Shown here one piece after another: positions 40,287 through 52,197 of a DNA stretch of 64,000 nucleotides (its first letter is position 1; each line of letters opens with the position of its first letter). The notes beneath the pieces are model-generated. The model was not told the DNA's origin. It saw nothing but the letters and a program-made list of their open reading frames with translations, and did not search any database. The DNA is from Mesostigma viride (Eukaryota; Streptophyta; Mesostigmatophyceae; Mesostigmatales; Mesostigmataceae). The stretch is taken from assembly GCA_009746045.1 (NCBI GenBank), contig RPFO01000022.1, positions 3,068,443 through 3,132,442 of the forward strand, written 5' to 3'. The position numbers and the translations under genes were made by a program.

Positions 40287-40305
40287 ATCCGGTCCGAGGA
40301 ATCCA
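40287..40305. other. direct repeat bracketing array plus LINE, left
   Basis: ATCCGGTCCGAGGAATCCA, repeated exactly at 49027-49045; likely target-site duplication of the full-length LINE. Confidence 0.75.
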
Positions 40306-40316
40306 CATATATATAA

Positions 40317-43300
40317 AAAACATGCGTGGACGATAGGAATTATAGCACCGGCGGGCTTCAAAGTGCCGGACGGCAGGCGGTACCACCATTCCGTGGCAGC
40401 TTGGCCCAGTTTGCTACCGGCTGGCACACGTTTTCAGTGAATTTTGGGCTCCAGATTTAAATGCAACGTGCGGTTTGAGGCAGGGGAAAACATGCGTGGA
40501 CGATAGGAATTATAGCACCGGCGGGCTTCAAAGTGCCGGACGGCAGGCGGTACCACCATTCCGTGGCAGCTTGGCCCAGTTTGCTACCGGCTGGCACACG
40601 TTTTCAGTGAATTTTGGGCTCCAGATTTAAATGCACCGTGCGGTTTGAGGCAGGGGAAAACATGCGTGGACGATAGGAATTATAGCACCGGCGGGCTTCA
40701 AAGTGCCGGACGGCAGGCGGTACCACCATTCCGTGGCAGCTTGGCCCAGTTTGCTACCGGCTGGCACACGTTTTCAGTGAATTTTGGGCTCCAGATTTAA
40801 ATGCAACGTGCGGTTTGAGGCAGGGGAAAACATGCGTGGACGATAGGAATTATAGCACCGGCGGGCTTCAAAGTGCCGGACGGCAGGCGGTACCACCATT
40901 CCGTGGCAGCTTGGCCCAGTTTGCTACCGGCTGGCACACGTTTTCAGTGAATTTTGGGCTCCAGATTTAAATGCAACGTGCGGTTTGAGGCAGGGGAAAA
41001 CATGCGTGGACGATAGGAATTATAGCACCGGCGGGCTTCAAAGTGCCGGACGGCAGGCGGTACCACCATTCCGTGGCAGCTTGGCCCAGTTTGCTACCGG
41101 CTGGCACACGTTTTCAGTGAATTTTGGGCTCCAGATTTAAATGCAACGTGCGGTTTGAGGCAGGGGAAAACATGCGTGGACGATAGGAATTATAGCACCG
41201 GCGGGCTTCAAAGTGCCGGACGGCAGGCGGTACCACCATTCCGTGGCAGCTTGGCCCAGTTTGCTACCGGCTGGCACACGTTTTCAGTGAATTTTGGGCT
41301 CCAGATTTAAATGCAACGTGCGGTTTGAGGCAGGGGAAAACATGCGTGGACGATAGGAATTATAGCACCGGCGGGCTTCAAAGTGCCGGACGGCAGGCGG
41401 TACCACCATTCCGTGGCAGCTTGGCCCAGTTTGCTACCGGCTGGCACACGTTTTCAGTGAATTTTGGGCTCCAGATTTAAATGCAACGTGCGGTTTGAGG
41501 CAGGGGAAAACATGCGTGGACGATAGGAATTATAGCACCGGCGGGCTTCAAAGTGCCGGACGGCAGGCGGTACCACCATTCCGTGGCAGCTTGGCCCAGT
41601 TTGCTACCGGCTGGCACACGTTTTCAGTGAATTTTGGGCTCCAGATTTAAATGCAACGTGCGGTTTGAGGCAGGGGAAAACATGCGTGGACGATAGGAAT
41701 TATAGCACCGGCGGGCTTCAAAGTGCCGGACGGCAGGCGGTACCACCATTCCGTGGCAGCTTGGCCCAGTTTGCTACCGGCTGGCACACGTTTTCAGTGA
41801 ATTTTGGGCTCCAGATTTAAATGCAACGTGCGGTTTGAGGCAGGGGAAAACATGCGTGGACGATAGGAATTATAGCACCGGCGGGCTTCAAAGTGCCGGA
41901 CGGCAGGCGGTACCACCATTCCGTGGCAGCTTGGCCCAGTTTGCTACCGGCTGGCACACGTTTTCAGTGAATTTTGGGCTCCAGATTTAAATGCAACGTG
42001 CGGTTTGAGGCAGGGGAAAACATGCGTGGACGATAGGAATTATAGCACCGGCGGGCTTCAAAGTGCCGGACGGCAGGCGGTACCACCATTCCGTGGCAGC
42101 TTGGCCCAGTTTGCTACCGGCTGGCACACGTTTTCAGTGAATTTTGGGCTCCAGATTTAAATGCAACGTGCGGTTTGAGGCAGGGGAAAACATGCGTGGA
42201 CGATAGGAATTATAGCACCGGCGGGCTTCAAAGTGCCGGACGGCAGGCGGTACCACCATTCCGTGGCAGCTTGGCCCAGTTTGCTACCGGCTGGCACACG
42301 TTTTCAGTGAATTTTGGGCTCCAGATTTAAATGCAACGTGCGGTTTGAGGCAGGGGAAAACATGCGTGGACGATAGGAATTATAGCACCGGCGGGCTTCA
42401 AAGTGCCGGACGGCAGGCGGTACCACCATTCCGTGGCAGCTTGGCCCAGTTTGCTACCGGCTGGCACACGTTTTCAGTGAATTTTGGGCTCCAGATTTAA
42501 ATGCAACGTGCGGTTTGAGGCAGGGGAAAACATGCGTGGACGATAGGAATTATAGCACCGGCGGGCTTCAAAGTGCCGGACGGCAGGCGGTACCACCATT
42601 CCGTGGCAGCTTGGCCCAGTTTGCTACCGGCTGGCACACGTTTTCAGTGAATTTTGGGCTCCAGATTTAAATGCAACGTGCGGTTTGAGGCAGGGGAAAA
42701 CATGCGTGGACGATAGGAATTATAGCACCGGCGGGCTTCAAAGTGCCGGACGGCAGGCGGTACCACCATTCCGTGGCAGCTTGGCCCAGTTTGCTACCGG
42801 CTGGCACACGTTTTCAGTGAATTTTGGGCTCCAGATTTAAATGCAACGTGCGGTTTGAGGCAGGGGAAAACATGCGTGGACGATAGGAATTATAGCACCG
42901 GCGGGCTTCAAAGTGCCGGACGGCAGGCGGTACCACCATTCCGTGGCAGCTTGGCCCAGTTTGCTACCGGCTGGCACACGTTTTCAGTGAATTTTGGGCT
43001 CCAGATTTAAATGCAACGTGCGGTTTGAGGCAGGGGAAAACATGCGTGGACGATAGGAATTATAGCACCGGCGGGCTTCAAAGTGCCGGACGGCAGGCGG
43101 TACCACCATTCCGTGGCAGCTTGGCCCAGTTTGCTACCGGCTGGCACACGTTTTCAGTGAATTTTGGGCTCCAGATTTAAATGCAACGTGCGGTTTGAGG
43201 CAGGGGAAAACATGCGTGGACGATAGGAATTATAGCACCGGCGGGCTTCAAAGTGCCGGACGGCAGGCGGTACCACCATTCCGTGGCAGCTTGGCCCAGT

Positions 43301-43614
43301 TTGCTACCGGCTGGCACACGTTTTCAGTGAATTTTGGGCTCCAGATTTAAATGCAACGTGCGGTTTGAGGCAGGGGAAAACATGCGTGGACGATAGGAAT
43401 TATAGCACCGGCGGGCTTCAAAGTGCCGGACGGCAGGCGGTACCACCATTCCGTGGCAGCTTGGCCCAGTTTGCTACCGGCTGGCACACGTTTTCAGTGA
43501 ATTTTGGGCTCCAGATTTAAATGCAACGTGCGGTTTGAGGCAGGGGAAAACATGCGTGGACGATAGGAATTATAGCACCGGCGGGCTTCAAAGTGCCGGA
43601 CGGCAGGCGGTACC
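40317..43614 (+). repeat. 170-bp tandem array, 19.4 units
   Basis: CATGCGTGGACGATAGGAAT starts at 40321 and every 170 bp through 43551; the last unit stops at GGCGGTACC (43614). Units are essentially identical; I see one A-to-C change in the first unit boundary (near 40636). Each unit contains CCAGATTTAAATGCAACGTG and GGGGAAAACATGCG. Low divergence means recent amplification or strong homogenisation. Confidence 0.97.
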
Positions 43615-43628
43615 GCGACCGCAGCGCG

Positions 43629-43680
43629 TTGGGGGGCTGCCGCCCCCCAAACCCCCCGCGTGGGGGGCTCCGCCCCCCAC
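43629..43680 (+). other. two GC hairpins in the LINE 5' leader
   Basis: TTGGGGGGC / GCCCCCCAA (43629-43650) and GTGGGGGGC / GCCCCCCAC (43660-43680) form 9-bp stems with 3-4-base loops, about 45-95 bp before the first Met of the PHD ORF. Confidence 0.75.
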
Positions 43681-43722
43681 ACCCCCCGCCCCCCCCCTCG
43701 GTGGCTGCCACGCCTGCCCTGA

Positions 43723-44230
43723 TTGTTCATGGACGACCCACGACCCCCTTCGCCCAACGGCTCCCCCGCTCCCCGGTTGGCGCCTCGGCGGTCCTCTCGG
43801 CTTGCGGCCCTTCTTGCGGAGGTGGGCGACCCGGCTGCGGGGGGCTCGGGCGCCCCGGTCTCCCCCTCCTTGGTCTGCGAGGTCTGCCGGAGCGGGCACC
43901 GCGGGCACCACATGTTAGTTTGTGATGCTTGCAATTCCGGGTGGCACTTGCAGTGTCTTACTCCCCGGCTCTACCGGGTCCCGCCGGGCTCCTGGACGTG
44001 CCCGCGCTGTCCCCCCCGGCGGGCCCCCGGGCTGCCCTCCCCGCTGGGTGCTCCGGCCCCCTGCCCCGTGTGCCCCCCTGCCGAGGCCCTCGGGGCGGGC
44101 CGTGGCCTGCCCGATGGGGCCGCCGTTGCTCGGGCCCTGGCGCCCTCGGCCCCGGGGCCCCACCCGTCGCCTGGCCCCGCCGACGGGGGCGCGGCGCTGT
44201 CGCCTGGGCTGGGCCCGGCCGACCCCCGGC
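43723..44230 (+). CDS. LINE ORF part 1: PHD finger
   Basis: It starts at ATG 43723 (MFMDDPRPPSP). After a Ser/Arg/Ala-rich 45 residues comes a textbook PHD finger (about 43873-44011): CEVC, then VCDACNSGWHLQC, then WTCPRC, i.e. C2-C2-H-C-C2 with the Trp before the last pair. PHD fingers read histone H3 tails, and in LINE proteins they may aid chromatin targeting. A second possible CPVC pair follows near 44070. The frame then runs through Pro/Ala-rich linker and shifts by about 44230, where coding-like sequence continues in another frame. The C-rich composition makes the exact break uncertain. Confidence 0.85.
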
Positions 44231-44234
44231 GGGC

Positions 44235-45117
44235 CTGGCGACCCCGGCGCCCGCCCCCGGCCCCTCGCTCCCCGACGCTCTGGCCTCCCTTCCCCCGGCC
44301 GCGGTTGGCCACCCAGCCGCCACCCCCGTCCTTGCCGCGTGGGACGGCGGCCCCCGGGCCCACGCGTTCACCTCGTGGCCGCCCTCGCACATTGTCGGCG
44401 TGGTGGGCCGCGCCACCTTTTCTTGGGCGTACTGCCCTTTGTTGCTGGACGCGGTCGGGTCCAGGCCGCCTTCCCCTCGCTCCCTAGGCCCCCGGCCTTC
44501 CTGGCCCTAGTTGCGCGGTGCGGGCGACATTTCTTTCCGCCGCCCCCCGGTGACGGCCTCGACTCTTTGGGGGTATGTCTTGGAAGGATATCACGCCGGC
44601 TGCCGGCTGCCGTGGCATCTCCCGGCCGCCCGGCAGGAAGAGCTGCTTTCCCTGGACGAGCGGGTGGGTCAGGAGGTGGTCGAGTTCGTCACGGCGGTGG
44701 CTCGAGACGCACAGGTCTCGGTGCGGGCGGCCTACCTCGCGGGCGGCGCCGACCTGGGCCTCATGTCCCCGCGGCAGCTTCGCCTCTTCTTGGACGCCCA
44801 GGCCCCGCCTCCCGGCCCGGTTGCCAGTGGGGGCTTTCTCATCACCTCCCTCAGCCTGGCGCAGGCCGCCATGCTGCGTGTGGAGTTCGGGGCCCCCATC
44901 GCGGTTCAGGGCGGCCAGGCCATCTTGGTGGACTCGGCCGGGCGCGCCCAGCCCCTAACCGCGGGGACGCCTGTTTCTGCCTTCCTCCACGACATCCTGG
45001 AGTTGGCAGGCATCCCGCACGAATGGCACCCCGCGGCTGACCAACCGGTCGGCATCCTCTCGCGCGCCCAGATTGCTGCTCTCCCGGGTTGCTGGGAGGC
45101 CGGCTGGGACCCGCCCC
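44235..45117 (+). pseudogene. LINE ORF part 2: unrecognised ~200-residue domain
   Basis: This frame reads HAFTSWPPSHIVGVVGRATF and SWAYCPLLLDAVG, meets a TAG at 44508-44510, and continues in the same frame with LWGYVLEGYHAGCRLPWHLP, QEVVEFVTAVARDAQVSVRA, LMSPRQLRLFLDAQ, LITSLSLAQAAMLRVEFGAP and LHDILELAGIPHEWHP. The length, position and HEWHP ending made me consider an OTU- or ULP-like peptidase, known from some LINEs, but I see no convincing catalytic triad. The in-frame stop suggests this copy is inactive. It ends at a C-run near 45117, where coding moves to the RING frame. Confidence 0.55.
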
Positions 45118-45925
45118 CCCTCATGTCCGGTCCCTTCTGGAGGGGGACGACCCCGAGTCGGGCTCCTGTGCCATCTGCCTTGAGCCCTTCCGGCCGGGGG
45201 ATGGCTTGTGTCGCCTGCCCGCGTGCGGCCACACATTCCATCAAGCGTGCATCGCGCGCAGCTTGCTCCACTCCGTGCCGCGCTGCCCGTTGTGCCGGGC
45301 TGTTGTGCCGCCCCCTGGGACTGCGCTTCCTCTCGGCCCGCCCCCGGTCTCGCTGGGTCCCCTGCCGGGTCCCCACCGGGCCCCGGGGCCAGCTGCCTCC
45401 CCGACCCCTCGGCCGCCGCCCCCGGCCTCGTTGCCGGGGCCTGGGGTGGTCGCGGGCGCGCTGGCGAGTCCCCCTGGGAGGGGCGCCGGCGTTCTCGATC
45501 CCCCTCCGCTGGGGGTCTCCCCGGTGGGCACTGCCTCCTCCGTGGCCCCGGCGGGCATGCCGGGCGCTGGTCGGGTCGTGGTGCGCGCGCCTGCCGGCCC
45601 GGCTGGGGAGACGCCGCAGGCCCCACGTCCTGCCTTTGCTGGCGCCGCTCCCCGCCACTCAGCGCCCGCCGACGGCCTTCACCGGTGTGCCGTGCTGCTT
45701 CCCACGGGGTCCCCGTGTGCTGGTGTGTTCCACAACCGTAACCTCCTCTGCCAGCACCTTCGCGCTGTGCACCCCGATCTCGGCGCGGCGGATCTGCAGG
45801 CCATGAGCTGTTACCGGTGCCCGGAAGCTCACTGCCAGCGGGTGTACTCCATTCACGGGCGCGCTCAGCACGCGCGCGCCTGTGTTGCTCAACGGCCCCT
45901 CAACCGGCCAGCAGTCCCGGCCCCC
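45118..45925 (+). pseudogene. LINE ORF part 3: RING-H2 finger and C2H2-type fingers
   Basis: The RING-H2 finger spans about 45168-45295: CAIC, then CGHTFHQAC, then RCPLC, which is C3-H2-C3 with the usual spacing and hydrophobic residues (the I-C-L-E-x-F start). RING-H2 fingers recruit E2 enzymes for ubiquitin transfer. A Pro/Ala-rich linker follows. Two fingers lie near 45685-45890: C-x9-C...HNRNLLCQHLRAVH, and CPEAHC...HGRAQHARAC. C2H2 fingers in this place bind target DNA in R2-type proteins. The frame changes again around 45925. I know of no LINE described with PHD and RING together, but I cannot search. Confidence 0.8.
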
Positions 45926-46728
45926 TCCCCCCTCCCGCCTCGGCTCCCACCGGCTCCCAGCCCCCGCCGCCCGACTACTCGGCCAGTTGGCGTTGGCTTG
46001 ACACGGTTCCCTGGGATGCATGCGCCATCAACCCGACGTCTACCCTGACCGACCTCCCCCACCGCGCGCGTAGCCTTTTCGCGCAATGTGCAATCGTTTC
46101 TCTCCGGCGCATGCACGCCGCTCCGGACGACCCGCTGGGCTTTAAACTGCACATGGTGACCCCCCGCCTGCTCCTCACCCCTCTCGGGCGTGGTGTGCGC
46201 GGCCTCCAGGGTGCGGTTATTGCCCGTTGCCGACGCTTTCTGCAGGGGGACTGGGAGGGGCTGTTTGGCGTGCCGCCCCCGCGCACGGCCCGGCTGTCGG
46301 GGGAGGTCAACTTCGAGCGGGTGGCCGCCGACGTCATCCGCCTCGTCCGCGAGGGGCAGCTCAGCCGGGCCATGACCCGCTTGGAAATGGCCAAGCTGGC
46401 CCCCGCCAATGCGGCTACCCTGGCGGCCTTGGAGGCTCTTCACCCTGCGGAGCCCGGATTCCAGCTGCCCGTGCCGGACCCCCTGCCGGCCCCCCTCCGG
46501 CTGGACCGCGACTGCTTCCTGGAGGTGATGCGTGCGGTCCCGCGGGCTTCCTCTACCGGGCCGTCGGGCTGGCGCTACGAGCACTTGGAGGTCCTGGTGG
46601 GGCATGGGGGCGAGGACATTCTCTTTGACACCCTCATTGACCTGGCGGCTGGTCGCGTTCCTCCCGCTGCGCGCGAGTGGTTAGCGGGCGCTCGCCTCCT
46701 CGCTCTGCTCAAGGGTGTCTTGCCCCCC
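45926..46728 (+). pseudogene. LINE ORF part 4: region before and start of RT
   Basis: Frame 1 from PDYSASWRWLDTVPWDACAI to LLALLKGVLPPP. It holds the usual pre-RT segment of LINEs: LAALEALHPAEPG, then VPRASSTGPSGWRYEHLEVL (the S-A-G-P-D-G-type entry to RT) and AAGRVPPAAREWLAGARLLA. A run of C at 46721-46728 then shifts the frame; sequence after it (EGKVRPIACGEVL) continues RT. The C-run has a different length in copy B, so a slip or sequencing error is likely. Confidence 0.85.
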
Positions 46729-48887
46729 CCGAGGGCAAGGTGCGCCCGATCGCCTGCGGTGAGGTGCTCCGCAAGCTCGTGGGCAAAGTGATCTGCCGCC
46801 AAAAGGCGCCCGAGCTCCGTGCCTTTTTCTGCCCGCCCCTCGCAGCGGGTGAGACCTCGGTGGCGGCCCAGCTGGGGGTGACGACTCCAGGCGGGGCGGA
46901 TATCCTCATCCATTCGGTGCAGGCCTACCTCGAGGCCCACCCCACCCACGCTGTCGTCAAGGTCGACTGCCACAACGCGTTCAACAGTCTGTCCCGCGCC
47001 AGCATGTTTGCGGCCGTCATGGAGTCCTTCGAGGACTTGTACGCTTGGACAGCCGTGTGCTACGGCCAGCCCGGCCAACTGGTTCACATCATGGAGGACG
47101 GCACTCGCGGCGGCCTGCTGTCGCGGTCGGGCACCCAGCAAGGGGACCCCCTGGGACCCCTGTACTTTGCCGCCCCCCTCCAGGGTTGCCTCCAAGCGGT
47201 CCATGCTGCCCACCCGGCGGTCGCTATTCAGGCCTACTTGGATGATATCTACCTTCTGGGCCCTGTGCCGGACACCACCGCGGCTCTGCTGGCACTGCAG
47301 ACCGCGGTGGCCGACATCAACCTCCAGTTGACCCTGGCCAAGTGCGCGGTGTACTCGCCCCAAGGTGATTGCTCCGGCTTTCCGCCCCAGCTCTTGGGCC
47401 GGGACGAGCGCCTCCATGGGTTGGATGTCCTCGGCGTTCCGGTTGGCGACCCCGCGTTTGTCATCGATGCTCTGCGGGCCGCCCTCGAGGCACGCACTGA
47501 GGTACTGCCCTTGATTGCGCGCCTTCATGATTCGCAGACCAAGGGTCTGCTTCTGTGGTTTTGCGCTCACCCTCGCGTCGTTCACTGGCTCCGGGGCGCT
47601 CTTCCGGCTCAGGTCCGGCTGGCCGCCGAGGGCCACGACGAACGCATCCAGTCGGCCTTGGCGCAGCTGGTCCCGGGCCCCGACCTCCCGCCACATGCTA
47701 TTCGCATTGCCTCCCTGCCTGCACGGATGGGTGGCTGCGGTCTGACTCGTGCCGCCCGGCTGGCCCCAGCAGCATTTTTGGGCTCCGTCGCTCAGTCGTG
47801 GGCGGAAAGCTGCCGGCTCCTGCCCCTTTTGGCAACGGCAGCGCCTGACCTCCTGGACCCCAGCAGCCCTTTGCCCTTCGTCACCGCCATCCAGGAGGCC
47901 TATGCTGAGATCCAGCAGGCCTGTTCTCCCGTCCGTGCCGCTCAGGCGGTACAGCGCCACCTCCCTCGCGGCACTCCCTCGGTCGCCTCCGTTCAATCTC
48001 CCGCCGCATTCCCTGCTCGCGTCATCGATAAACACCAGAAAACCTACGCGGGTATTCTGCACACGGCTGATTGGATTGCTCTTTTCGCGGACCTCAACGC
48101 CCAGGGACGTGCGTGGCTGTTCTCGCTTTCCTTGCGGAGTGTGGGCTCGGCGTACCTTCGTGCTCTTCCCATGGCCCCCCCATTCGCCTTGGCTCCCAGC
48201 CACTACTCGGTGGCGCTCCGGCACCAGCTATTTGCCCCGCAGCCTCTTGTTCCGGCCGGGCGGCCTTGTGGTAGCTGTGGGCAGCCGCTGGATCCCACGG
48301 GGACTCACTACCTTGCCTGCATGGGGGGCCAACAGAATCAGAATTGGTATTTGTATTTGCACACTGTCCTCCTGACGGTGGTGCTCGCCATGATTCGGTC
48401 GGTTTTCCCCCACGCGAACATCCGGTCCGAGGATGCGGATGGCGCTGCCTTCTATTCCCCCAACCACCGGCCTGACATCGTGGTGCTGGACTTTGAGGGG
48501 GGTGGCCGGCATCTGCTTATTGACGTTTCGGTGGCGCGGCCCTTGGCTCTTAGCCACGTGGCTGGGGCCTCCCTCACGGCAGGTTACACGGCGGACCGGG
48601 CGGAGCGGGCCAAGCTCCTGGCCTACGGCGACGTCGGGCACCATCGTGTGGTGCCCTTTGTCCTGGAGGAGTTTGGTGCCATGGGGCCCCTGACCTCCGC
48701 CTTCTTCAAGGAGTGTTGCCGGCTCCGGGAGGACCGGCTGGACCTGGAGGGCCAGCGGGCCCCATGGTCGGCGCGGACCTGGACGTCATATTGGCGTCAG
48801 CGCTTGTCGGTGGCGCTGACTCGGGCCATGGCTGACATCATGCTCCGCCGTACGCGGGCTGATTTCGCGGTGCAGCAGGGCTATTAG
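46729..48887 (+). CDS. LINE ORF part 5: reverse transcriptase, CCHC knuckle, restriction-like endonuclease
   Basis: About 720 residues ending at TAG 48885-48887. RT motifs: VVKVDCHNAFNSLSR (motif A, ~46960), SGTQQGDPLGPLYFA (motif B), AYLDDIYLL (motif C, ~47232-47255). A long thumb/connector follows. CGSCGQPLDPTGTHYLAC (~48267-48320) is the CCHC knuckle that precedes the endonuclease in R2-like proteins. RPDIVVLDF (48468-48494) and LLIDVSVARP (from ~48513) supply the PD...D core of a restriction-like nuclease. The enzyme would nick target DNA and prime cDNA from the 3' OH. All catalytic residues I can identify are present, so this half looks functional. The displayed ATG at 46677 belongs to the pre-frameshift overlap and is not a natural start. 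Confidence 0.93.
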
Positions 48888-49026
48888 GTTCCTCCCGTTA
48901 GGCGTTTCCATTGGTCTTATCGTAGTATAGAGCTTTGACATGGCTCTGTATATAGGTTTATAGCTGGGCGTTTGCTTTGGTTTGAGTGATTTCACTCTGC
49001 TGTAAGTAATTATATTTTTAATATAT

Positions 49027-49045
49027 ATCCGGTCCGAGGAATCCA
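49027..49045. other. direct repeat bracketing array plus LINE, right
   Basis: ATCCGGTCCGAGGAATCCA, exact match to 40287-40305. Confidence 0.75.
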
Positions 49046-49050
49046 TATAT

Positions 49051-49661
49051 ATCCGGTCCGAGGATGCGGATGGGCGCTGCCTTCTATTCCCCCAACCACC
49101 GGCCTGACATCGTGGTGCTGGACTTTGAGGGGGGTGGCCGGCATCTGCTTATCGACGTTTCGGTGGCGCGGCCCTTGGCTCTTAGCTGCACGTGGCTGGG
49201 GCCTCCCTCACGGCAGGTTACACGGCGGACCGGGCGGAGCGGGCCAAGCTCCTGGCCTACGGCGACGTCGGGCACCATCGTGTGGTGCCCTTTGTCCTGG
49301 AGGAGTTTGGGGCCATGGGGCCCCTGACCTCCGCCTTCTTCAAGGAGTGTTGCCGGCTCCGGGAGGACCGGCTGGACCTGGAGGGCCAGCGGGCCCCATG
49401 GTCGGCGCGGACCTGGACGTCATATTGGCGTCAGCGCTTGTCGGTGGCGCTGACTCGGGCCATGGCTGACATCATGCTCCGCCGTACGCGGGCTGATTTT
49501 GCGGTGCAGCAGGGCTATTAGGTTCCTCCCGTTAGGCGTTTCCATTGGTCTTATCGTAGTATAGAGCTTTGACATGGCTCTGTATATAGGTTTATAGCTG
49601 GGCGTTTGCTTTGGTTTGAGTGATTTCACTCTGCTACATAAGTAATTATATTATTAATATA
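49051..49661 (+). mobile_element. 5'-truncated LINE copy
   Basis: Starts at ATCCGGTCCGAGGATGCGGA, the same point as LINE position 48420, and runs to the 3' end at 49661 (TTATTAATATAT). It carries only the end of the endonuclease. There are small differences (GATGGGCGC, TTAGCTGCACG), each shifting frame. Followed by ATATATCTGCCAGG, also present at 40273-40286, a likely 14-bp target duplication. Confidence 0.9.
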
Positions 49662-52197
49662 TATCTGCCAGGTGCCTCTCTGCTACATGGAAATACAAAG
49701 CGCAATCAAGGACAGCAGTGGCTTGGGCTGCTATTCGATTGAGCTCAGCACCTAGCTGCTGTGCAACATGATTCTGCATCAGTGCCTGTCCTAATTGCGC
49801 CCCCCCGCCCCCTTGCCATCATCGTCATGCTCATCATAGTCTTTGGAACGTGCACTGAACTCCAACCCTTGGACAGTCCATAGGTCATTAAAGAATCTGT
49901 GCATGTAATGCTAGCGCTTCTCAGTTGAACTCATCTACCACCCTCTCATGGTCGTGTCATCTCTCATGTAATCCACCTAGGTTTATCGTGACCACTGATC
50001 TTTCAGCCCCTCCTGACATCAAAATCTGGGCAAACACACTGTTGACATCGCCCTTCCTTTTTAGCCTGCATGGCTCCTCATGTTTATCCAGTCTCATCCC
50101 TCAATACACCTAGAACTGTCTATTCATCCCCCTTGCATAGGCGGTGCATAATTGCGGCGTGATGGGGGATTGCCAAAAATAGGTGTAAAATGCATGGGAT
50201 GGCACGGGGAGGCTCACACTCATCGCTTTACAATCACATGCACTCATGTGCTAACAATGTCCCTCCCTGCTTTTGACACTGCATGCACATGCATTTCCTA
50301 CCGGCTATATCAAGCCTTTAGTGTGGTTTGGTGCATCAAGAGACATGGCAGGTCAGCTGAGTGCATCAGACCACATTTGTGTTAAGTGTACGCTTGCAAC
50401 GCTGTTTGCCCACCGCATGGAGCTCCCATTTCGGACAGTGGCACAAGTAGCAATTACACCTTACTCCCAGCCGCTCACCCTGCCCATGCTAGCAACAAGA
50501 ACAAATGCATGGTCCCCATCCCAACGTAAGGTGCATCACATTGATGGCCCTGCCATCACCTAGCAGTGTGCCACCCCTCTCCACCTCAACCTACTCTGAA
50601 AGGCCTGGGCCCCAACAAACCTTTCAAGACATGGCACTCCTCAAAGAAGGCAACCCCTACTAACCCCTAAATGGGCAGAAATACTGCCGATGCATCGGCT
50701 GTAACTTCACAATTTTGCAAACCAGATGCCATCCAACCCACCCATATCCAATGGCTGTCCTTGGGGGCCAAGCATGTCCATGAGTTGCCCTTCGGGTTGG
50801 TATATCACAACCTTACATATATGCAGGGTAGGCCATGTATAACTGCCGTCAAAGTCAGGGGGGTCAAGACGAGCGTTTTCATTTTTGGTAGAATGTGCAT
50901 TTTGAATTATGTTGTAAGAGCTAGGCACCTACCACTTCAGGGATGATGAACAATTAGTTGCTGAACAGTTTGAGCCATTGGGGTCATCATTTGGGTGGGT
51001 ATACCAGCAGTTACACCCAGTACAGCCCATAGGGGTACCGTTGGTAAAAAGCAACCAAGGGGTAGGAGTGGGCATACTACCTACTAATACCTACTAATAT
51101 GGCCCCCAACCATGCCACACAATACATTTCCCTTCCACAATGATGGGGAAACATAACTGCATCATCACACTGCCCTTACATGGCACCTATGTGCAGGTGC
51201 CACCTTGTCCATGCACGTAGGTAACGTGGTACGGATACCCTACGCAAGGCATGCATTCTAGGAGGCAGCCACCAACAAACTAGTGATTTTAAGCCTATTT
51301 CAGCTTGCCCTAGCAAGGATAAACTAGGCCTAAGCTGCTATAGCTTGCCAGGTGATGGCCAGCACACCTGGTGGCACATGCTGACAATGGGAAGCTTCTA
51401 CTCACCGGTTACATGCTTGATGATGCCACAGAGACCAGCCAACTGCCTCACACTCATGCAATATGTGTGTGGGAAATGTATAACAAACATATATGGAGGT
51501 ATTCAAACCCATACAGCCTCTAAAACTTATCACCATCACCCTGTGGCAGGTCAACTGACTGAGGGAAGCATCTAAGAAGGGTGTTTTAGAAAGGGGCCAG
51601 GCCAGGGTCAAGAAAGAGCATGAATAATGCAAAAAGAATGCGCTACACAAGCTAGAACGTATATATAAACGTCAAACATCGATAGGAAAACGATGATTAA
51701 GCTTTACCAGGCATGGATGGCGTTACCTTGGCCCAGACGGTGGCCGCAAAATGGCGCATTTCGGCACACCAAAGTTGTGCAGCATGGTCGCTGGATTCGG
51801 CGATTTCTGGCCACCCTTGCACGTTTACGACTACTATGTATCATAACAAGTACAAAGAAACCAATATATCCTTTAAAATACGCCGGAAAGGTATTGCTGT
51901 CAACGTTTCTATCGTCCGGCCTGATCGCAGTTTTTTCGAGCAAGAACGCTGCCGACACCTATCAAATGGCATTCCCGCGAACCAAAAATTGGCCTGTATC
52001 ATCTTTAGGACGTATAAAATCAATTTCCTGAGTTTGGTCAGAAAATTCGAACGAAAACGTAAATGCCATGCGTGGGCGCAAGCCGCCATGGCCAGGTCGT
52101 CGTTTTCCGGAATGCACGTTGTACGTGAAAAAGTACCCTGACCCCTTGTACTTTGACCGGCCAGAACACCTCTATAATGTTAATCTTCCCAGAAAAA

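Follow-up and report, generated by a model that had tools for sequence, protein, structure and literature searches.

The genome of the green alga Mesostigma viride (440 Mb) harbors a young, high-copy R2-type LINE, one copy of which occupies positions 40317-49021 on the + strand of the window (the whole 64,000-nucleotide stretch of DNA analyzed here). In the reading that we consider well supported and quite probable, this is an R2-like element with a single protein, in which a PHD finger, an orphan domain and a RING-H2 finger have been gained ahead of the usual fingers (Table 1). The initial annotation had drawn the element from 40306 to 49026; its start lies just ahead of the monomer array at 40317 and its end a few bases from the estimated terminus at ~49021. 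The parts had also been described as collinear on the + strand within one element, and so they are, though in the window copy they are spread over different frames.

Table 1. Features of the Mesostigma element and its surroundings in the window
Feature	Position	Strand	Basis or remarks
Target-site duplication, left copy	40287..40305	+	19 bp; pairs with 49027-49045
170-bp monomer array, probable 5' UTR/promoter array	40317..43614	+	19.4 head-to-tail units, 99% matches
G+C-rich unique leader, array to first ATG	43615..43728	+	Sequence
Coding unit, ~1,720 codons	43729..48887	+	~7 breaks in window copy, bridged by overlapping open frames in other copies
PHD finger, Cys4-His-Cys3	43876..44010	+	PF00628; PDB, WSTF PHD
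Orphan domain, between PHD and RING	44256..45113	+	No detected relative; RNase H-like by eye only
RING-H2 finger, C3H2C3	45164..45298	+	PF13639; PDB, RNF165 and Arkadia
Two C2H2/C2HC-like fingers, N-terminal to RT	45686..45890	+	Sequence; same placement in relative P0008; no Pfam match
RT N-terminal extension, conserved region	45931..46719	+	Conserved in alignment
Reverse transcriptase (RT), YLDD	46734..47381	+	PF00078; AlphaFold model
CCHC zinc knuckle	48267..48320	+	Conserved columns
Restriction-like endonuclease, RPD...D...K	48420..48700	+	Conserved columns, profile, fold
3' UTR, last bases TTATATTTTTAA, then target ATATAT	48888..49021	+	Copy comparison
Target-site duplication, right copy	49027..49045	+	19 bp
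5'-truncated sister copy, reduced to 3' UTR and endonuclease part	49051..49655	+	Sequence comparison

Membership among the LINEs with a restriction-like endonuclease (RLE), proposed at the outset from the YLDD-containing RT, the CCHC knuckle and the PD...D nuclease, is upheld by Pfam, profile and fold comparisons and by 28 genomic copies. The RT scores above the Pfam cut-off (42.7 bits against 29.6, E 6.6e-11) and its AlphaFold model reaches a pLDDT of 92.0. The CCHC and RPD...D...K residues (the latter at 48468-48614) match conserved columns of 24 aligned proteins, whose profile finds R2 of Taeniopygia at 7.4e-41 in a match extending nearly to the C-terminus; from RT to endonuclease, R2 is the best match both by profile and by fold. 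Together with the Y-x-D-D motif and the CCHC followed by PD...D...K at the C-terminus, the element has the variable 5' end, constant 3' end and target-site duplications that characterize RLE-type LINEs. No Exo_endo_phos match, indicative of an APE endonuclease, was returned by Pfam for five ORF pieces and two orphan-domain pieces. Among the RT relatives, 43 of 75 matches were scanned and 42 contained a Pfam RT; none of the 43 gave a PHD or RING match at E<=0.1, many of them lying on short contigs and being possibly cut. One relative (P0041) displays, by eye, a PHD-like finger without a Pfam match.

Both the PHD finger (first placed at 43873-44011) and the RING-H2 finger (45168-45295) are recognized by Pfam above cut-off, the former at 40.8 bits (cut-off 24, E 2.2e-10), the latter as zf-RING_2 at 44.6 bits (cut-off 27.3, E 1.7e-11). 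The best PDB match of the PHD finger by sequence is the PHD of WSTF (9.2e-14). The finger resembles the PHDs of WSTF, KDM5 and ATXR5, the solved structures that it matches include those of KDM5A/B, BAZ2A/B and ATXR5, and in the PDB alignments it retains the core of H3-reading PHDs. The RING has all eight zinc ligands, and its best PDB matches, RNF165 (9.2e-9) and Arkadia (1.1e-8), are named E3 ligases. These resemblances make the PHD a likely histone-reading finger and the RING a likely ubiquitin-ligase finger; it is plausible that the protein reads histone tails and acts as, or recruits, ubiquitin machinery. One could also envision that the two are zinc-binding folds for the element's RNA or its target DNA, with no role in histone recognition or ubiquitylation. 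R2 and other RLE-type LINEs bind nucleic acid with their N-terminal fingers, the Mesostigma protein carries many fingers in a row, and, in our own reading of the alignments, the loop following the first cysteine pair of the PHD is basic, whereas WSTF and KDM5D have an acidic one. However, the complete ligand set of the RING, its kinship with E3 ligases and the H3-reading core of the PHD speak against this alternative, which we regard as possible but on the doubtful side.

The two C2H2-like fingers (originally given as 45685-45890) remain a reading by eye, joined now by a similar finger pair in the relative P0008; Pfam yields no match for this region (~45686-45890) at E<=0.1. The orphan domain matches nothing in Pfam, or by sequence in the PDB, at E<=10. 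A collection of 5.8 billion proteins, searched twice, yielded no relative; in one of these searches the query took in linkers rich in proline, and scoring was limited to the candidates with the most words in common. A single-sequence model of the domain was poor (pLDDT 39.1), the modeled stretch having overrun the domain end out of frame. An RNase H-like pattern can be made out by eye. Pfam finds no Ulp1-like protease in the ORF pieces or the orphan-domain pieces.

The coding unit of the window copy is broken at about seven places. The PHD lies in one frame, the orphan domain in a second, and the RING and C2H2 fingers in a third; the region before the RT, and then the RT-endonuclease part, each follow a further shift. 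The fingers had been expected to be in frame with the RT. Natural copies bear this out stepwise from the PHD through the endonuclease: some have the PHD in frame with the orphan domain, others the orphan domain with RING, C2H2 fingers and the region before the RT, others this region with RT and endonuclease. No single copy examined is open throughout. In three copies (L042-L044) the orphan domain is joined to the region before the RT and the PHD stands in a different frame; one of the three (L043) has an additional break in the RT. Another copy, L025, joins PHD to orphan domain through differences in linker length other than those the window would need, and the frame of the linker (44020-44250) is uncertain for this reason. 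An unbroken protein of ~1,720 residues is thus what we infer from overlapping open frames of other copies. Introns are an unlikely cause of the frame changes, since these are single-base changes absent from other copies and the element moves through RNA.

A different interpretation of the breaks is that the visible copies form a non-autonomous, frame-broken family, mobilized in trans by rarer intact relatives, with PHD and RING being passengers in most of them. Each of the 28 copies in the first set shares three of the breaks, and in 57 of 62 scored RT matches the RT frame is only the short one (748 codons). Matches to one RT pattern number 545 in the genome; among the 100 of them listed, only 15 have a longer run of C, while in 83 the run is shorter and in two a base is changed. 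The longer run appears to go with the open frame, as suggested by three copies (on C25, C145 and C224) that have both. On the other hand, the breaks in the window shift the same way, four of the seven or so, including the three fixed ones, coincide with C runs six to eight bases long, and these breaks are missing from other copies. Two window breaks located away from long runs are present in a minority of copies only and may be real. According to its description, the published M. viride assembly was made from PacBio RSII reads and polished with Illumina data by Pilon (PMC6947507). Such polishing would probably correct near-identical repeats poorly. The substitution pattern also argues against a frame-broken family. 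Of 18 shared substitutions in the 28-copy alignment we counted 13, leaving out one in the 3' UTR and four at 44212-44462 beside frame breaks; five singletons were set aside too. Eleven of the 13 are synonymous in the inferred frames. The RT-endonuclease part holds eight of the 13 (one missense) and the RING-C2H2 segment three (one missense), with one each in the orphan domain and in the stretch ahead of the RT. Neither the PHD segment nor the RING itself contains any of them, and the synonymous excess applies to the frames that begin with the orphan domain. On balance, mobilization in trans seems to us rather unlikely. Programmed frameshifting, yielding a set of separate proteins, is very improbable: several changes do occur at homopolymer runs, where slippage is possible, but other copies do not need them, and we know of no precedent for about seven successive events of this kind.

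The initial annotation would have been contradicted by copies in which the PHD and RING segments were absent or belonged to a separate host gene. Instead, 27 of the 28 copies (99.6-100% identical) run through both segments, making the two fingers part of the element and ruling out a neighboring host gene. That upstream host genes supplied them and the element proper begins at the C2H2 fingers, as might be suspected from relatives whose N-termini, where read, either begin no earlier than such fingers or open with unrelated sequence, is scarcely credible when these 27 copies carry the whole block between flanks that nearly all differ (L011 and L019 are alike), the 170-bp monomers precede the block in 27 of 28 copies (the 28th has masked sequence there) and 150 scored genomic matches to the orphan domain, copies already counted among them, are 99-100% identical.

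Target-site duplications of 10-19 bp flank eight of 13 copies, the other five having no clear duplication, and the 3' junction falls within ATATA in 24 of 28. Judged from their flanks compared among themselves, these 28 copies are dispersed rather than inserted at one site. The initial annotation had inferred a site-selective endonuclease; the target is mostly ATATA-containing sites and not one unique gene. The window element is inserted within or beside the 5'-truncated sister copy. In other copies the number of monomers varies from 3 to at least 29. No ribozyme match was obtained from Rfam at E<=5 over 43000-49700, which covers the last monomers of the array, and one 170-bp monomer folds worse than most of its shuffles (z 2.1).

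These properties inspire a model for the life cycle of the element. Transcription would probably start inside the 170-bp monomers, which would act as promoters, and the ~1,720-residue protein would bind its own RNA. The endonuclease would nick the target beside ATATA, where reverse transcription would be primed, leaving the duplications behind. Most likely, the PHD would tether the complex to accessible nucleosomes by way of the histone H3 tail, and the RING would recruit an E2 so that, where the element inserts, a silencing factor, a histone or the protein itself is ubiquitylated. It is tempting to speculate that the retrotransposon thus carries a chromatin toolkit in its own protein, the H3 reader choosing nucleosomes and the E3 marking or removing chromatin or silencing proteins, and that this helps explain the copy number; extrapolated as it is from domain resemblance, we hold this idea tentatively and think it rather less probable than not. 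The questions of how LINEs select their chromatin sites and how they cope with silencing by the host are open and have mostly been approached through host factors. If one protein indeed unites a nicking endonuclease with a histone reader and a RING, both questions would become testable with single domains. The many near-identical copies with clean duplications offer a ready map of insertion preference.

Among the closest known systems, R2 of animals shares the single ORF, the fingers ahead of the RT and the C-terminal CCHC and PD-D/E-K endonuclease. R2 sits in 28S rDNA, whereas the Mesostigma element occupies dispersed, mostly ATATA sites and has in addition the PHD, the orphan domain, the RING and the 5' monomer array. 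Dualen/RandI of Chlamydomonas, likewise a green-algal LINE with an RLE, also has an APE endonuclease, which Pfam does not detect in the Mesostigma element. Mouse L1 carries tandem 5' promoter monomers whose number differs among copies; variable monomers are common to both, but the 170-bp unit is unrelated and belongs to an R2-like element. Gains of N-terminal domains by RLE-type LINEs have precedents in the Ulp1-like protease of nematode Utopia/NeSL elements and the RNase H preceding the RT in oomycete Utopia, as described in PMC4640811. Extra N-terminal domains are thus found in both, those of Mesostigma being a PHD and a RING, with no Ulp1 by Pfam and an RNase H likeness by eye only. An N-terminal PHD occurs in CR1 and L2 LINEs, and in some subgroups it opens the only ORF, which a repetitive 5' region precedes; these LINEs carry an APE endonuclease, and the term 'ring' appears nowhere in the article (PMC4120745). 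The initial annotation knew of no described case of the combination, and a literature search covering titles and the beginnings of abstracts, with subscription papers, Repbase and Dfam outside its scope, likewise found no RLE-type LINE with PHD and RING among the papers listed. What is new, in a class of elements already known, is this domain architecture.

The PHD and RING fingers belong to the LINE and not to a neighboring gene. A DNA search of the Mesostigma viride genome (439.9 Mb, 2,243 contigs) with positions 43620-49010 as query, in which the best candidates were scored, returned at least 28 copies, 99.65-100% identical to that in the window, and one 30-base match. By the initial annotation's criterion, other copies devoid of the PHD and RING segments would have refuted its reading; instead, 27 of the 28 carry essentially the whole query, and the remaining one starts 526 bases into it, its locus being masked there. 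Two of the copies, L011 and L019, have a common 3' flank and may be a single locus. When the orphan domain between PHD and RING served as query, the best 150 of 628 candidates were scored and all proved 99-100% identical, copies already counted being among them. A pattern within the RT that contains a variable-length run occurs 545 times in the genome. Counts from the DNA, orphan-domain and RT-frame searches are lower bounds, only the best candidates having been scored.

Positions of features of the LINE and its surroundings in the window
Feature	Position	Remark
170-bp monomers, near-perfect, 19.4 units	40317-43614	5' end of LINE
Orphan domain	44256-45113	between PHD and RING
5'-truncated sister copy	49051-49655	directly downstream; full window copy nested in or beside it

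Anatomy, copy number, duplications and site preference of the LINE are directly observed. Its 3' end hardly varies, reading TTATATTTTTAA in most of the 28 copies, and the flanking sequences differ; downstream of this end, ATATA begins to appear within 14 bases in 24 copies, as against 0.6% of 14-mers in window positions 1-39000. Target-site duplications of 10-19 bp accompany 8 of the 13 copies with both ends available; the other five comprise one 9-bp low-complexity match, one uninformative match and three without duplication. The 5' junction often carries extra bases. These features fit target-primed reverse transcription that favors ATATA, and not strict site specificity. Monomer number in other copies ranges from 3 to at least 29. 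Four of 13 copies (L009, L010, L013 and L027) begin at monomer positions 1-5, which points to a transcription start inside the monomer. Such a start would recall rodent L1, whose transcription starts inside a 5' monomer. No ribozyme was found by Rfam (E<=5) in positions 43000-49700, which include the last monomers.

A consensus with the fingers out of frame with RT would likewise have refuted the initial annotation; here the copies mostly support it. The coding unit in the window changes frame about seven times, always in the same direction, four of the places being runs of six to eight C; the change after the PHD is placed approximately. Across the 28 copies, three places are invariant, a fourth and a fifth are open in 23 and 24 copies, respectively, and a sixth in 3. 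In L025, PHD and orphan domain share a 694-codon frame, through linker lengths differing from those of the window; L042, L043 and L044 hold orphan domain, RING, C2H2 fingers and pre-RT region in a single frame of 956-958 codons, with the PHD out of frame; and a copy on contig C25 links pre-RT region, RT and endonuclease over 1,124 codons. These frames overlap, and jointly they imply a single ORF of about 1,720 codons. No scored copy was seen to be open from PHD to endonuclease. The shorter RT frame was present in 57 of 62 scored RT matches (best candidates).

The simplest cause of the frame breaks would be run lengths left uncorrected when near-identical repeats were assembled from long reads, judging from the published assembly method: the account of strain NIES-296 (441.8 Mb, 2,363 scaffolds) describes PacBio RSII reads, Pilon polishing with Illumina reads, and optical maps (PMC6947507). 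The main rival explanation is that most copies are defective and mobilized in trans. Run lengths vary among the near-identical copies L020, L025, L034 and L042-L044; gene models within repeats of this assembly may therefore often be frame-broken through homopolymer errors. The EukProt model P0002 ('jgi/Mesvir1') matches the RT part at 86% identity over 58% of the query. Coding segments show an excess of synonymous changes. Eighteen substitutions recur in at least two of the 28 copies; 13 lie in the coding segments used, none of them in the PHD segment, and 11 are synonymous, against a chance expectation of 27% (35% for transitions), with P values of 2.8e-5 (3.1e-4) that serve as a guide only, the copies not being independent.

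In the same genome, the 150 RVT_1 matches that were scored reach 120-136 bits, far above the LINE's own RT, and their open frames are as long as 1,364 codons. Many of these scores coincide, which points to further young, high-copy RT families. P0041, a distant metagenomic relative, bears near its N-terminus (residues ~9-48) a PHD-like cysteine pattern, which Pfam did not match, followed by a C2H2-like finger.

From their sequences, the PHD is inferred to read the H3 tail and the RING to act as an E3. PHD fingers are known in CR1 and L2 LINEs, with a targeting role proposed without functional tests (PMC4120745), and the RLE-type LINEs NeSL and Utopia have extra N-terminal enzymes, Ulp1 protease and RNase H (PMC4640811). 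No relative of the orphan domain could be detected; to the eye, its motifs LFLDA..., ILVDSAG... and ...LSR resemble RNase H, which stands ahead of RT in oomycete Utopia. Literature searches for the combination among openly available papers listed, by title or abstract start, no RLE-type LINE with PHD and RING; the initial annotation knew of no such combination either. Unlike CR1/L2, NeSL and Utopia, the LINE unites PHD and RING with an RLE-type core.
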